A stretch of 64,000 bases of DNA, taken from Acidobacteriota bacterium. GTDB lineage: Bacteria; Acidobacteriota; Vicinamibacteria; Vicinamibacterales; Fen-181. A program made the translations under genes and the position numbers. The stretch is from NCBI GenBank assembly GCA_017883185.1, contig JADGOB010000001.1, positions 37,797 through 101,796 on the forward strand, in the 5' to 3' direction. The notes under the pieces were generated by a model. That model worked only from the letters and a program-made list of their open reading frames with translations. It was not told where the DNA came from and did no database searches. This document shows, piece by piece, positions 27,222 to 35,295 of the stretch (position 1 is its first letter; each line of letters starts with the position of its first letter).

Positions 27222-28350
27222 GTGCTTAATTGCATAAGTTGACGATTGTGTTTCTCAACTGCGATCCCTTGACCTCTCGTTTGCGCCAGATGAATGGTTT
27301 CGCCCTTGGGCCGTATGCCGCGACGAAGGCCTCAATGGCGAGCCGCACGTCGTTCACACTGCGGAAGCTGGCCCCACGCAGGGCTTTGCGCGACAGGATG
27401 CCAAACCAGATCTCCACCTGGTTCAACCAACTGGCGGAGGTCGGGGTGAAATGGAAGCGGACGGTCGGGTGCGCGGCCAACCACGCGTCGTTCTTCTTAT
27501 GGATGCAGTAGTTGTCCAGAATCACGTGGATCTCATGGTCGTCACCAACATCGGCCAGGACCTCATCCATGAACGCGAGGAACTCGATCCGCCGCTTCTT
27601 CTCGGTGGTGGCGGTGTGAATGGCGCCGGTCGCCACGTCCAGGGCGGCGAAGAGGTTCAAGGTGCCGTGTCGCTTGTAGGTACTCTTGAAGCCTCGGACG
27701 ATCGTGCCGTTGTCGGTCATGACGTAGCCGGTGAGGCGCTCCAGAGCCTGAATGCTGGGTTTCTCGTCCACAGAAATCACCAGCGCGGCTTGGGGCGGAT
27801 TCAGGTACAGCCCGATGATGTCAGCCGCCTTCGCGGCGAATTCGGGATCCGTGCTCACACACCAGCTACGGTGCCGACTCAGACAAATGCCTTCTTTGCG
27901 TAGGACGCGCCAGACGGCATGCACGGACGTCTGGAGATGCTCGGCGACACCCGGACCATCCCACTGGGCCTGCCCCGCCGGGGGCACCTGTTCAAGCACG
28001 TCGAGCACGCGCTGGCGAAAGGCCGGGCCATACTGCACGGGCTTCCCCGGGCGGGCCCGATCGACCAGGCCTGCCAGCCCTTCAGACGCAAAGCGATTCC
28101 GCCACTCCATGACGGTATTGGGGCGAACCCGCAGACGGTGGGCAATCTGCGTGACCGGTTCGCCCTCAAGGCACGCGAGAACGATCCGGGCGCGTTCGAC
28201 CAAGCGCGCCTCCGTCGTCTTGCTGCGGCTCCACTCGTGCAAGGTCTCTCGATCCGCGGTCGCACACGGCGGAACACTCGCCTTCCTGGGCATAGGCACC
28301 TCCCTTGCCCAGGAATTTACATCATATCAGTTACTAACGCAAGTAATCAC
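27222..28350 (-). mobile_element. IS630-family insertion sequence flanked by TA duplication (27220-27221, 28351-28352)
   Basis: Imperfect TIRs GTGCTTAATTGCATAAGT / GTGATTACTTGCGTTAGT, flanking TA on both sides, single intact transposase. Confidence 0.92.
27226..28299 (-). CDS. IS630-family DDE transposase, apparently intact
   Basis: N-terminal HTH ERARIVLACLEGEPVTQIAHRLRVRPNTVMEWRNRFASEGLAGLVDRARPGKP; D-D-E in LVISVDEKPSIQ, VILDNYCIHKK, SWLNQVEIWFG. Confidence 0.95.
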   Translation of the reverse strand: MPMPRKASVPPCATADRETLHEWSRSKTTEARLVERARIVLACLEGEPVTQIAHRLRVRPNTVMEWRNRFASEGLAGLVDRARPGKPVQYGPAFRQRVLDVLEQVPPAGQAQWDGPGVAEHLQTSVHAVWRVLRKEGICLSRHRSWCVSTDPEFAAKAADIIGLYLNPPQAALVISVDEKPSIQALERLTGYVMTDNGTIVRGFKSTYKRHGTLNLFAALDVATGAIHTATTEKKRRIEFLAFMDEVLADVGDDHEIHVILDNYCIHKKNDAWLAAHPTVRFHFTPTSASWLNQVEIWFGILSRKALRGASFRSVNDVRLAIEAFVAAYGPRAKPFIWRKREVKGSQLRNTIVNLCN

Positions 28351-29724: not shown

Positions 29725-29991
29725 CTACTTGATCACCTTCAGTCGACGAAGGTCATCTTCAGACCACCCGATGTCCTTGAGCAACGCGCCGAGCAGCGAC
29801 TTATTACCGTAGGACTTCTTGGCGCGACGGTGAATCGAAACGCGGCGCCGCTTCTCGCCATCGCCCTTGGTGTAAATGACGATCGAACCGGTCTTGCAGT
29901 CGGGTGCCCATCCGTCCCGCTGAAGGGCGCTGCACAGCTCTTCTGTGGTGATGTTCCTTATCTGGTCCCAGACAGCTGTGGCGAAGGCCAT
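29725..29991 (-). CDS. hicA: HicA-like toxin of a type II toxin-antitoxin module
   Basis: ITTEELCSALQRDGWAPDCKTGSIVIYTKGDGEKRRRVSIHRRAKKSYGNKSLLGALLKDIGWSEDDLRRL; adjacent HicB. Confidence 0.75.
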   Translation of the reverse strand: MAFATAVWDQIRNITTEELCSALQRDGWAPDCKTGSIVIYTKGDGEKRRRVSIHRRAKKSYGNKSLLGALLKDIGWSEDDLRRLKVIK

Positions 29992-30296
29992 CGGAACTGG
30001 ACCCGTCGAATCGCTGTCGGTGGAACGAGCGGGCGATCGTCTGCCTGCGCGACTTCGAGGCTGGCCCCGATGGGAATCGGGTCGCCGTGCCGAATGTAGG
30101 ACTCCAAGTAACAGTTGACCGCCTGCATCGCGGCATTCACGGCTTCGTCTTCGGTCTCCCCGCCGACGTGCAGGCCCTCCAAGCCGGGGCAATACGCGTG
30201 GTATTCGCCTTCGTCGCGTTCAACGGCAATCACCACCTTGAAGGTGATCGGCGTCGGCTTTGGGCGGATCCAGTCGATGAATGCTTTCGGGAACAT
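29958..30296 (-). CDS. hicB: HicB-like antitoxin
   Basis: ITFKVVIAVERDEGEYHAYCPGLEGLHVGGETEDEAVNAAMQAVNCYLESYIRHGDPIPIG; overlaps hicA by 34 bp. Confidence 0.82.
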   Translation of the reverse strand: MFPKAFIDWIRPKPTPITFKVVIAVERDEGEYHAYCPGLEGLHVGGETEDEAVNAAMQAVNCYLESYIRHGDPIPIGASLEVAQADDRPLVPPTAIRRVQFRWPSPQLSGTR

Positions 30297-30627
30297 AAGG
30301 AGTGGCCTCAACCAAGCGGGGGACGTGTTGAGGGTGAGAATGTTACACCATCTTGGACGCCCCAGGGACGGCGAAAGTTCCCGGCCAGAAGCCACCCTTC
30401 TCTTCCAGTTATCGGCAGGTTCACCACCGAGTGTATGCCCTTCGCCTGCGGCTGTCCACGTCCACTGCGGCGACTTCTACCGTAGCGAAAGACCCCGCAT
30501 GGCATCCCTTGGCATCCTCGGCGAGGCAATGGTAGTACGTCGTGCGGAAACTCCCCAGGATGGCTACCCCGCCATCGAGCCGACACCTGGCCAGCGCGTC
30601 GGCGAGGGTCCTCGCGTCGGGGCGGAG

Positions 30628-31038: not shown

Positions 31039-31338
31039 TCAGCACATGCCGCCGACCACCGCCTGCTCGTGAACGACCAGGATGTCCTCCGGCGAGTCGC
31101 CGACTTCGATCCGTGCGCCGTCCAGGTCGGACGCCGCCTTGAAGTCGGCGTAGATGGTCAGGCCGTCGAGAGCAAACACCTGCTCGCCTGACCGGGCGCC
31201 GGACGGCGCTGGCGTGAGTCGGTAGCCGAGGGCGCCGCAGCCGCCGGCAAACGACAGCCGAAGGGCGGGCCTGCTGGAATCGCGAGCCAGAGAGTCGGAA
31301 ATCGCCTGTCGCGCCTCCGGTGTGACGGTGATGGTCAT
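31039..31338 (-). CDS. HesB/IscA-like (A-type Fe-S carrier-like) protein
   Basis: MTITVTPEARQAISDSLARDSSRPALRLSFAGGCGALGYRL...; HesB fold, lacks the canonical C-terminal CGCG. Confidence 0.8.
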   Translation of the reverse strand: MTITVTPEARQAISDSLARDSSRPALRLSFAGGCGALGYRLTPAPSGARSGEQVFALDGLTIYADFKAASDLDGARIEVGDSPEDILVVHEQAVVGGMC

Positions 31339-32192
31339 AGGGACTTCGTCAACCGGCGCGCCTCGCGCGCCGCCTCAGAACGCTGCTTCAGTGCCTCGTA
31401 CGCCGCGGCCGGCAGCGAAACGGACCCGGGGCGCGCAGGGCCGTGAGCGGGATCGCCGTGGTAGTCGGACCCGCCGGACATGGCGAGGCCGAGTCGTTCC
31501 GCCAGGATGCGGTAGTGCGTGGTCATCTCGGGCGAATGCTCGGAGTAATACGCCTCGAGGGCGTCCAGCCCGGACGCCGCAATCGGCGGAATCCACTCGT
31601 CGTGACCCATGAGGCCTGGGTGCGCCAGCGAGGCGATCCCGCCCGCTTCGTGAATGAGCGTCACGACATCCTGCGGAGACGGCGCCCGGCGAGGCACCCA
31701 CGCGGCACCGTTCTCGGCGAGGTAGAGATCGAACGCCTCCCGCGTTGTCCGGACGTGCCGGGCGCGGAGCAGCGCACGCGCGAGTAGCGGTCGGCCAATC
31801 CACCTGGCGTCGAGGCCCCCGTGCCCGCCGAGCACTTCGTCGGCGTCCACGTGAAGCCCTAGGGCGTCGAGTTTGTCGATCATCTCCCGCACGCGCCGGC
31901 GGCGGTCGGTCACCTGTGCGTCGAGAAACTCCGTCAGGACGGCGGAATGATGATCGAGGAAATATCCGAGGACGTGCACGTCCACGTCCTCGTAGATCGC
32001 CGTGATCTCGATCCCCGGCACCCACTCGACCTCCGCGGTCGCGCACGCCGCCGCCACGCGGTCGAGGCCGGCCACCGTGTCGTGGTCCGTCACCGAGATC
32101 GTGTCCAGGCGGGCGCGCACCGCGGCCTGTACGAGATCCTCGGGCGACGAGCGCCCGTCCGAGGCTGTTGTGTGGAGGTGGAGATCAATCAC
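31335..32192 (-). CDS. PHP-domain phosphoesterase
   Basis: GTG start: VIDLHLHTTASDGRSSPEDLVQAAVRARLDTISVTDHDTVAGL...WVPGIEITA...AHPGL...GLAMSGGSDYHGD. Confidence 0.92.
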   Translation of the reverse strand: MIDLHLHTTASDGRSSPEDLVQAAVRARLDTISVTDHDTVAGLDRVAAACATAEVEWVPGIEITAIYEDVDVHVLGYFLDHHSAVLTEFLDAQVTDRRRRVREMIDKLDALGLHVDADEVLGGHGGLDARWIGRPLLARALLRARHVRTTREAFDLYLAENGAAWVPRRAPSPQDVVTLIHEAGGIASLAHPGLMGHDEWIPPIAASGLDALEAYYSEHSPEMTTHYRILAERLGLAMSGGSDYHGDPAHGPARPGSVSLPAAAYEALKQRSEAAREARRLTKSL

Positions 32193-33163
32193 GCGTGGAC
32201 CCGGGTCCGGCGCGGCGAGCCGGGACGCCGGCGCTGCCCCTGGCGTCGGGCCAGCGCCCGGTATTCCCTGATGAGCAATTCGATGTGGCCCCGCTCCTCG
32301 CTCGCGAACTCGAGGAAGATCTGCTTGCCTTCCGAGTCCTCGAAACGCTCGCCGTACCGCTTGAAGAACCTGTGCGAGGCGCGCTCGCACCGGATGCCAA
32401 TCATCAGGGCCTGCCGGTCGTCCACGCCGCGCGCCACCTGCTCGGCGCCCGACGCGAAGAGGCCGTTGGCGGCTCCCTTGAAGAAGAGGAACGTCGGGCG
32501 CGACTCGAGCCGGGAATCCTGCGACAGCAGACGCTGGTAGCGCTGCTCGAGCTTCGAGAGATGCTCGCGTTCCTCGGCGGCCAGTTTCTGGAAGACGGCC
32601 TTCCCGCGCGCATCCTGCGTCACCCGCGCCACGCGCACGTAGAACTCGAACCCTGACCGCTCGGTCGCGATCGCGATGCGCATCGCGTCGCGTGCGAACA
32701 GCAGTTCCGTGGTCACCGCGTCGGCCGGCTCGGCTCGGCCCGTCCGGCACTCCTCGCACGTGCCGTAAATCTGCAGCACGCTCTCGCGCGCAGAGAAGTT
32801 CCTCGCCGTCGCGATCTCCTCGATCAGCGCCTCGATGTCCGAGCTCAGGAACTCGGACGATCGGTTGCACGACTGGCAGATGAGATGGAAGTGCCGAGGG
32901 TGCCGGTAGGAGTGCTCGAAGCGGAAGCGGCCCTCGCCGAAATCTACTTTCCTGGCAATCCCGGCCTCGACCATCCACTGCAGCGACCGATAGACCGTCG
33001 CCCGGCTGACCTGCTGGTCTTCCCGGTGGATCAGGTCGTAGAGGTCATCCGCGCTGAGGTGTCCTTCGTGACGAAGGAACACGTTCAGGATGAACTCCCG
33101 CTTGCTGGAGCGCTTGCTCCCGGGAGGGCGCAGGCCGTCGAGGTCGGCAAGGACATGGGCCAT
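32189..33163 (-). CDS. Fur-family regulator fused to a C-terminal ferritin-like/rubrerythrin diiron domain
   Basis: N-terminal Fur (LSADDLYDLIHREDQQVSRATVYRSLQWMVEAGIARKVDFGEGRFRFEHSYRHPRHFHLICQSCNRSSEF...CEEC) then RDAMRIAIATERSGFEFYVRVA...AAEEREHLSKLEQRY...GIRCERASHRFFKRY...ASEERGHIELLIREY (two E + two ExxH). Confidence 0.88.
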   Translation of the reverse strand: MAHVLADLDGLRPPGSKRSSKREFILNVFLRHEGHLSADDLYDLIHREDQQVSRATVYRSLQWMVEAGIARKVDFGEGRFRFEHSYRHPRHFHLICQSCNRSSEFLSSDIEALIEEIATARNFSARESVLQIYGTCEECRTGRAEPADAVTTELLFARDAMRIAIATERSGFEFYVRVARVTQDARGKAVFQKLAAEEREHLSKLEQRYQRLLSQDSRLESRPTFLFFKGAANGLFASGAEQVARGVDDRQALMIGIRCERASHRFFKRYGERFEDSEGKQIFLEFASEERGHIELLIREYRALARRQGQRRRPGSPRRTRVHA

Positions 33164-33228: not shown

Positions 33229-33597
33229 TCAGTGGCCGCCGTCGTCCTCGGTGGTGAACGACTGGCCGCATCCGCACGTGGACACGGCGTTGGGGTTGCG
33301 GATGGTGAAGCCGCCTCCGGCGATGTTGTCCACGAAATCCACTTCGGCGCCTTTCAGGTAGCGCACGCTGATCGGATCGACGTAGAGCTTAACGCCATTG
33401 GACTGGAACACCTGGTCGGTGGCACCAGGGCTGTCCTCGATCATCAAACCGTACTGGAAGCCCGAGCATCCCCCGCCCTGGACGAATACCCGCAGGCCGG
33501 ACGCCTGCTTGTTCTCCTCGGTCAGCAGTTCGGCGACCTTCGACGCCGCCATCGAGGACACGTTGATGAACGACTCGCTCACGTTAGTGGTGATCAT
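33229..33597 (-). CDS. erpA: Iron-sulfur cluster insertion protein (ErpA/IscA A-type carrier)
   Basis: GLRVFVQGGGCSGFQYGLMIED...YLKGAEVDFVDNIAGGGFTIRNPNAVSTCGCGQSF. Confidence 0.92.
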   Translation of the reverse strand: MITTNVSESFINVSSMAASKVAELLTEENKQASGLRVFVQGGGCSGFQYGLMIEDSPGATDQVFQSNGVKLYVDPISVRYLKGAEVDFVDNIAGGGFTIRNPNAVSTCGCGQSFTTEDDGGH

Positions 33598-33680
33598 TTG
33601 GTGTAAGGGGGTCTCCTTCACGCGATTATACCAAGGCGTGCACAGGGTGTGCGCAAAAAGAGGCCGGGGCGGCAATCAGC

Positions 33681-33780: not shown

Positions 33781-35295
33781 CTAGGCGAGGGTGGCGAGGT
33801 TCTTCGCGGACTCGGCCTCGATGTCCTTGTGCAGGCTGTTGCCGTGCGAATCCATGGTGACGATGCACGGGAAGTCCTTCACGTGCATGTGCCACATGGC
33901 CTCTGGTACGCCGAACTCGAGCAGCGACACGTCGCTCACCTTCTCGACGCACTTCGCGTAGAACTGCGCCGCACCGCCGATGGCGCTCACGTAGACCGCG
34001 CCGTGCTCCTCGAGCGCCGCCAGCGTCTTGGCGCCCATCCCGCCCTTGCCGATGACCACCCGCACACCGAACTTGCGGATGACTTCGCCCTGATACGGCT
34101 CCTCGCGGGCGCTGGTCGTCGGGCCCGCGGCCATCATCTTCCAGCCGTCGCCGTCCTTCAGCACCACCGGGCCGCAGTGGTAGAGGATTCCGCCATTCAG
34201 ATCCACCGGCGGGTCGTGCTTCATCAGGTACGAGTGGACCGAGTCGCGGCCGGTATACATGACGCCGTTCAGCAGGACGACGTCGCCAACCTTCAGCGAC
34301 CGAACCTGCTCCTCGGTGATCGGCGAGGTCAGAACCACTTCCTTGCCCGTGCGGCTGAAGCCTGCCTGGTCGAGCATCGGCACGACAGGGTGCGACGGGT
34401 CGCGGTAGATCCAGCGCCGGATCGACCCATCCTTGGCATCGAGAACGACGCCCAGGCGGCGAAACGCCCAGCAGTCGTACGCCACCGACACGAAGAAGCA
34501 GGCCGGCAGCCGGTTCAGCACGCCGATCTTGCAGCCGATGAGCGAGGTCTTTCCCCCGAAGCCCATCGTGCCCACGCCGAGCACGTTGACCGTCTTCATG
34601 ATGGTCGCTTCCAGCTCGGCCAGGGCAGGATCCGGGTTGATGTCGTCCAGCGTACGGAAGAGCTGCTGCTTGGCCTGGAGGTAGCCGCTCGCGCGGTCGC
34701 CGCCGATGCAGACGCCGAGGACTCCCGGGCTGCAGCCCTTGCCCTGCGCCTGCCAGACGGCGTGGAGGATGCACTTGCGAACACCTTCGAGGTTCCGGTC
34801 GGCCCTGCCGAGGTGCGCGAGTTCGCAGGGGACGGAGTATTGGATGTTGGTGTTCTCGCAGCCGCCGCCCTTCAGGAGCAGTCTGACCTCGATCTCATCC
34901 CGGTCCCGCTGCTCGAAGTGGATGACGGGCGAACCCGGGCCGAGGTTGTTCCCGGAGTTCTTGCCGGTGACCGAGTCCACCGAGTTCGGACGCAGCTTTC
35001 CACGCCGCGTCGCCTCGGCAATCGCGTCACGAATCTGCTGTGCCATCCAGGTCTGGTTCGCGCCGATTGGCACCTTGATCTCGAAGGTCGGGAGGCCGGT
35101 GTCCTGGCAGATGGCGCCCTCGCCTTCGGAGGCCTGATCGATGTTCTCGGCGATGATCGTCAGGGCCTGCGACGACTGGGTCCCTGCAGGCTCATCGGCT
35201 AGCGCCGCCTTCATGGCGGCACGCACGTCGGGGGGGAGGTCCGTGGACGTCTTGATGACGAGTTCGAGGATGCTGCCGAAGAATGCTGGTAACAT
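33781..35295 (-). CDS. Class I (Fe-S) fumarate hydratase, fused alpha+beta
   Basis: ICQDTGLPTFEIKVPIGANQ...GKNSGNNLGPGSPVIHFEQ...GGGCENTNIQYSVP...LKVGDVVLLNGVMYTGRDSVHSYLMK...GPTTSAREEPYQGEVIRKFGVRVVIGKGGMG. Confidence 0.92.
   Translation of the reverse strand: MLPAFFGSILELVIKTSTDLPPDVRAAMKAALADEPAGTQSSQALTIIAENIDQASEGEGAICQDTGLPTFEIKVPIGANQTWMAQQIRDAIAEATRRGKLRPNSVDSVTGKNSGNNLGPGSPVIHFEQRDRDEIEVRLLLKGGGCENTNIQYSVPCELAHLGRADRNLEGVRKCILHAVWQAQGKGCSPGVLGVCIGGDRASGYLQAKQQLFRTLDDINPDPALAELEATIMKTVNVLGVGTMGFGGKTSLIGCKIGVLNRLPACFFVSVAYDCWAFRRLGVVLDAKDGSIRRWIYRDPSHPVVPMLDQAGFSRTGKEVVLTSPITEEQVRSLKVGDVVLLNGVMYTGRDSVHSYLMKHDPPVDLNGGILYHCGPVVLKDGDGWKMMAAGPTTSAREEPYQGEVIRKFGVRVVIGKGGMGAKTLAALEEHGAVYVSAIGGAAQFYAKCVEKVSDVSLLEFGVPEAMWHMHVKDFPCIVTMDSHGNSLHKDIEAESAKNLATLA

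Follow-up and report, generated by a model that had tools for sequence, protein, structure and literature searches.

Within the window, the whole stretch of 64,000 nucleotides of DNA that was analyzed, one gene encodes a Fur-family regulator fused to a ferritin-like domain of the rubrerythrin type (Table 1). The fusion is a genuine, widespread, and apparently undescribed form of the Fur family. Its host order is probably Vicinamibacterales (Acidobacteriota), soil and freshwater bacteria. We favor the reading, at roughly even weight, that the protein represses genes by binding DNA in an Fe(II)-dependent, Fur-type manner, carries a rubrerythrin-type diiron domain at its C-terminus, serves the order as housekeeping iron regulator, and reads both iron and oxidant. 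The original prediction had described a reading frame of 325 codons. This frame was recovered on the minus strand, where it specifies 324 amino acids because the stop codon had been counted, and all of the motifs quoted for it were found in the translation. The proposed order of domains, a Fur domain with its metal site followed by a diiron domain, was supported by Pfam matches, by the metal ligands, and by the fold.

Table 1. Features of the fusion locus, with positions counted from the first nucleotide of the window
Feature	Position	Strand	Evidence or remark
Fur-ferritin-like fusion gene	32189..33163	-	ATG at 33163, TGA 32189-32191, 324 aa
Fur domain (winged helix + dimerisation domain, residues 15-133)	32765..33121	-	Pfam PF01475; PDB sequence and fold matches; ligand conservation
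Ferritin-like (rubrerythrin-type) domain, residues about 152-305	32249..32710	-	Pfam PF02915; AlphaFold2; Foldseek; invariant ligands
erpA (Fe-S cluster insertion protein), directly upstream of fusion	33229..33597	-	NCBIfam NF010147 above cut-off; adjacency conserved in order
Class I (Fe-S) fumarase-like gene (fumA), upstream of erpA	33781..35295	-	Name read from sequence; tblastn synteny
PHP-domain phosphoesterase gene	31335..32192	-	Pfam PF02811; adjacency conserved; GTG start overlaps fusion stop (GTGA)
TATAAT, probable -10 element, upstream of erpA	33625..33630	-	TATAAT enriched in upstream regions

The Pfam search suggested along with the prediction returned both families above their cut-offs in one reading frame. 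The FUR match on the N-terminal half scored 95.3 bits (cut-off 23.1, E 3.6e-27) and covered positions 3-121 of the 121 profile positions. The Rubrerythrin match on the C-terminal half (43 bits, cut-off 22.8, E 7.5e-11) lay within residues ~158-305 and was made up of two half matches that correspond to two helix pairs, the better one at residues 253-305. When the PDB was searched by sequence, the first half retrieved FurB, PerR, and Fur (E 1e-16 to 1e-9), and the second half gave weak ferritin-like matches to TM1526, EncB, and 2FZF. A profile built from the second half alone had 1VJX, 2FZF, and 2OH3 as its top matches (E 1e-8 to 8e-5). Scans with Pfam and NCBIfam gave no match in the fusion to the rubredoxin-like FeS4 domain that marks a classical rubrerythrin; neither this domain nor another obvious electron donor is fused to the protein.

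Structure prediction with AlphaFold2 used an input of 39 sequences. The full chain was modeled with a pLDDT of 77 and a pTM of 0.57, a value at which the relative arrangement of the domains is not fixed. Among the Foldseek matches listed for this full model against the PDB, Fur structures alone were present, and the C-terminal domain was therefore folded separately. It then reached a pLDDT of 87 and a pTM of 0.80 and formed four long helices, in which pLDDT was mostly above 90 with blocks at 92-98. A confident helical C-terminal domain was thus obtained, and the E and ExxH residues originally named as ligands proved to be six invariant positions. In the PDB, Foldseek matched this domain mostly to ferritin-like folds, among them Dps-like and COG1633 proteins; the probability was 1.00 for most matches, the E-values were 0.011-0.1, and the TM values were about 0.5-0.6. 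Because none of these E-values was better than 0.011, the assignment of the fold also leans on the sequence profile and on the ligands.

Both metal sites of Fur were recognized in the N-terminal half. Site 2, defined by H37, D/E85, H91, H93, and D/E104 in the numbering of Bacillus subtilis PerR, is represented in the fusion by H35, E83, H91, H93, and E104. The structural zinc site 1, formed by two CxxC pairs, is conserved as C96, C99, C136, and C139, of which the latter two fall just 3' of the Pfam FUR match. An alignment of 39 sequences from the order showed the ligands of both sites to be invariant, one gapped row excepted, and they were complete in all 16 rows of a wider alignment (2 from the order and 14 from other families). 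Fur and PerR are told apart by Arg and Glu104 in the former versus Asn61 and Asp104 in the latter, and Glu at position 104 of Fur accompanies insensitivity of site 2 to H2O2 (PMC8638851, PMC4866751). The fusion carries R59 and E104, the discriminating residues of Fur, instead of the Asn and Asp of the PerR subgroup. The earlier label "Fur/PerR-type" is hence retained in its Fur part and dropped in its PerR part. The Fur half alone is predicted to sense iron and to be insensitive to H2O2, so that an input of peroxide or O2 would be better assigned to the diiron domain.

The diiron ligands of the fusion follow the pattern E, ExxH, E, ExxH and were identified as E168, E198, H201, E260, E290, and H293. 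All six were kept in each of the 39 aligned members of the order and were complete in 14 of the 16 rows of the wider alignment. A cysteine, C259 (codon 32387-32389, minus strand), adjoins the ligand E260; it was present in 39/39 sequences of the order, and its place is taken by Met, Ser, Leu, or Trp in the fusions of other families.

A profile search with PF01475 retrieved the fusion as the sole match in the source genome, which is estimated to be 100% complete. The DtxR-type domain PF02742 had zero matches there, and the same profile found matches in 11 of 14 control genomes. The search for iron regulators consisted of these two profiles. By hand count, 40 of the order's 72 genomes that are at least 95% complete, the source genome among them, have no FUR match besides the fusion. 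Second FUR copies sampled in other genomes were, as read from their sequences, mostly FurA- or PerR-like, several of them with Asp at the 104 position.

In the source genome, the start codon of the fusion lies 65 nt past erpA. The gap between the erpA stop and the fusion had a median of 51 nt and did not exceed 150 nt in 111 of 113 loci. The gene order erpA-fusion-PHP is conserved in the order, usually with fumA upstream of erpA; fusions of other families have different neighbor genes. Of 89 distinct regions preceding erpA, 64 contained the hexamer TATAAT, whereas a first-order Markov model predicts 1.7; the hexamer is probably the -10 element of a sigma-70 promoter. This promoter likely drives erpA as well as the fusion, and the recurrence of the hexamer implies that the two genes probably form one transcript. 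The erpA neighbor suits an iron regulator; co-location is no proof of function.

Further reading frames were noted on the minus strand beyond the PHP gene. Directly after it, with overlapping codons, lies a gene for an IscA/HesB-like protein of 99 amino acids (window 31039-31338); its family match is weak, and the protein terminates in GGMC and does not have the CxC of ErpA. Among the loci checked, it was clearly present only in the source genome and near-identical relatives. Reading frames resembling HicA/HicB toxin-antitoxin proteins (29725-30395) and an IS630-type transposase (27226-28299) were judged from their translations only.

Operators were sought in several ways. A scan of the window for the canonical 7-1-7 Fur box yielded two weak matches, one of them within a transporter-like reading frame. 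The corresponding scan of the genome yielded 17 sites with 3 mismatches versus 5 in the control. One of these 17 sites, which precedes a ferritin gene by 78 nt (G000 contig C293, L158 4039-4053), was kept only in the closest species; it was missing in other relatives and was for this reason not accepted as an operator. When the regions upstream of erpA were searched for palindromes, no shared operator emerged. Around the -10 box of these regions, an element resembling an inverted repeat, AGTATACCAACC...TTGGTATAAT, was seen in loci L052, L060, L065, L066, L073, L074, and L086. This dyad is confined to few loci and could be an operator. A convincing conserved Fur box was found neither in the window and genome scans nor in the upstream regions and the relatives.

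If the protein is a regulator as proposed above, its N-terminal half would bind operators as a dimer once Fe(II) fills site 2, and its C-terminal diiron site would take up Fe(II) and react with O2 or H2O2. Oxidation or filling of the cluster may alter the dimer or its site-2 iron and thereby shift repression, so that a single protein would sense oxidant along with the iron level and adjust Fe-S and iron genes accordingly. Coupling of diiron O2/H2O2 chemistry to DNA binding, the idea put forward in the original prediction, is plausible. The diiron centers of the plant proteins BTS/BTSL react reversibly with O2 and H2O2, and their iron is labile when reduced (PMC12022348). Two Pfam domains in one reading frame, the spread of the fusion through the order, invariant ligands, the Fur-type residues R59 and E104, low dN/dS, the confident helical domain with its mostly ferritin-like Foldseek matches, the status as sole FUR protein in a genome with no DtxR-type match, and the position in the erpA operon with its shared promoter speak for a regulator. 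The points against it are the want of a convincing Fur box, the pTM of 0.57, the loss of ligands in two fusions (L123 and L132), and the missing fused electron donor. It is possible, and we propose it tentatively, that the fusion is a dual-input master iron regulator, with the Fur site receiving Fe(II) and the diiron site responding to iron load or O2/H2O2; as such, it would replace separate inputs of the Fur and PerR/OxyR type where no second Fur-family protein exists.

Alternatively, the ferritin-like domain might chiefly have an enzymatic or protective role: as a tethered ferroxidase or peroxidase, it would clear excess Fe(II) or H2O2 from the vicinity of regulator and DNA and hardly affect repression. 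Dps and other ferritin-like proteins that bind DNA protect it, Dps-like proteins were among the Foldseek matches, and the ligand set of the rubrerythrin/bacterioferritin type is complete. A domain covalently fused to a low-copy regulator would, however, be a poor scavenger, and the fusion contains no reductant domain. Strict conservation in what is often the sole Fur-family protein suggests a regulatory role instead, and we regard a protective function as rather unlikely.

Less probable still, the C-terminal domain would be an assembly platform that determines how Fur oligomerises on DNA, its metal site being structural. Ferritin-like domains commonly oligomerise. This reading also draws on L123 and L132, both from family f44, which have lost diiron ligands and yet retain the C-terminal region, implying that the diiron site is dispensable in some fusions; L121, the third member of f44, is intact. 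Against a structural site stands the constancy of the six ligands: all 39 aligned sequences of the order have the full set, and so do 12 of the 14 other-family fusions, which are 30-41% identical. The ligand states of L123 and L132 are A/E/Q/G/E/H and Q/E/H/E/A/H, respectively, and these natural variants lend themselves to probing the role of the diiron site.

The idea that assembly or a frameshift had joined two genes, a caveat already attached to the original prediction and fed by the metagenome-type source assembly of 395 contigs, is vanishingly improbable and was ruled out, since the same intact, stop-free fusion occurs in dozens of independent genomes including the single-contig assemblies G009 and G021. 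Close relatives of the source genome also carry the fused reading frame, which was found in 79 loci of public genomes, a few of them truncated at a contig end or interrupted by an internal stop. Among 72 genomes of the order that are at least 95% complete, about 69 contained it at full length (hand count from the table) and 71 had a FUR match; in G029 and G050, the only match was a non-fused one. The architecture survey foreseen with the prediction thus found the fusion widespread in the order, and it extended to nine other Acidobacteriota families (f24, f27, f37, f44, f56, f61, f64, f69, and f71) with fused relatives of 30-43% identity. In the other-family fusions tested, both Pfam domains scored above cut-off except in L123, where FUR alone passes. 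Samples from further order-level groups of the same class (f16-f19) contained Fur proteins of about 40-45% identity that are unfused, and a plasmid search likewise found unfused Fur only and no fusion.

A tree was built from 64 Fur domains, of which 22 were fused and 42 unfused; on it, the fusion label required two changes as compared with 18 for shuffled labels, and one to two changes were counted over bootstraps. These values are compatible with a single origin of the fusion; the placement of L125 and L124/L127, which sit on long branches, is uncertain. Five pairs analyzed by the Nei-Gojobori method, some with saturated dS, gave dN/dS values of 0.05-0.15 (Fur half) and 0.12-0.27 (ferritin-like half). 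The low values indicate that both halves are under purifying selection, linker and tail being freer.

No description of a Fur-rubrerythrin fusion was found in the open-access full-text literature searched; a prior notice may exist elsewhere. The passages retrieved from a 2016 rubrerythrin survey make no mention of a Fur fusion (PMC5114695). Few bacterial regulators have been studied as well as Fur, and the chain of the solved structures matched here stops after the Fur domain. Here, throughout the order and here and there in other Acidobacteriota families, Fur comes joined to a ferritin-like domain, and this form is often the sole Fur-family protein. In the source genome, no other Fur- or DtxR-type regulator was found, which suggests how a single protein could read both iron and oxygen or peroxide. 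If the diiron domain controls DNA binding, the fusion would be a direct test case for the merging of iron and oxidant signals in one protein.

With Fur of Magnetospirillum and Escherichia coli, its best fold matches, the fusion shares the winged helix, the dimerisation domain, the CxxC...CxxC site 1, the His/Glu site 2, and the Fur-type Arg and Glu. The matched solved Fur proteins end at about residue 130-170, whereas the fusion adds ~180 residues that make up the ferritin-like domain. PerR has the same fold and the same five site-2 positions, but its Asp104 and Asn61 correspond to Glu104 and Arg59 in the fusion, the site 2 of which is predicted to be H2O2-insensitive. Rubrerythrin and the COG1633 archaeoferritin-like proteins (2FZF, 2OH3, and TM1526 1VJX) resemble the C-terminal half in their repeated helix pairs with Ex6Y and ExxH and in the same kind of six ligands, a pattern described in PMC3401498. 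The fusion differs from them in that it has no rubredoxin domain and is attached to a transcription factor. In MbfA, a ferritin-like domain is also the iron-handling module of a fusion protein; MbfA, however, is a VIT-type membrane iron exporter and no transcription factor (PMC7762939). The [FeFe] hydrogenase-rubrerythrin chimera of Clostridium perfringens is another natural fusion with a rubrerythrin module but an enzyme rather than a regulator (PMC11926857).

With DNA binding under the control of the diiron domain, the fusion would be the bacterial equivalent of the iron sensors that plants and animals build around a diiron site. Animal FBXL5 is a hemerythrin-type iron sensor that combines a diiron helical bundle with an output domain. 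Plant BTS/BTSL read iron and oxygen through a diiron helical-bundle domain that is joined to an output domain (PMC12022348). BTS/BTSL and FBXL5 differ from the fusion in their hemerythrin fold, their E3 ligase output, and their occurrence in eukaryotes; the parallel is functional, and no homology is claimed. The plant diiron sensors of the hemerythrin type are the closest parallel to the fusion in function.
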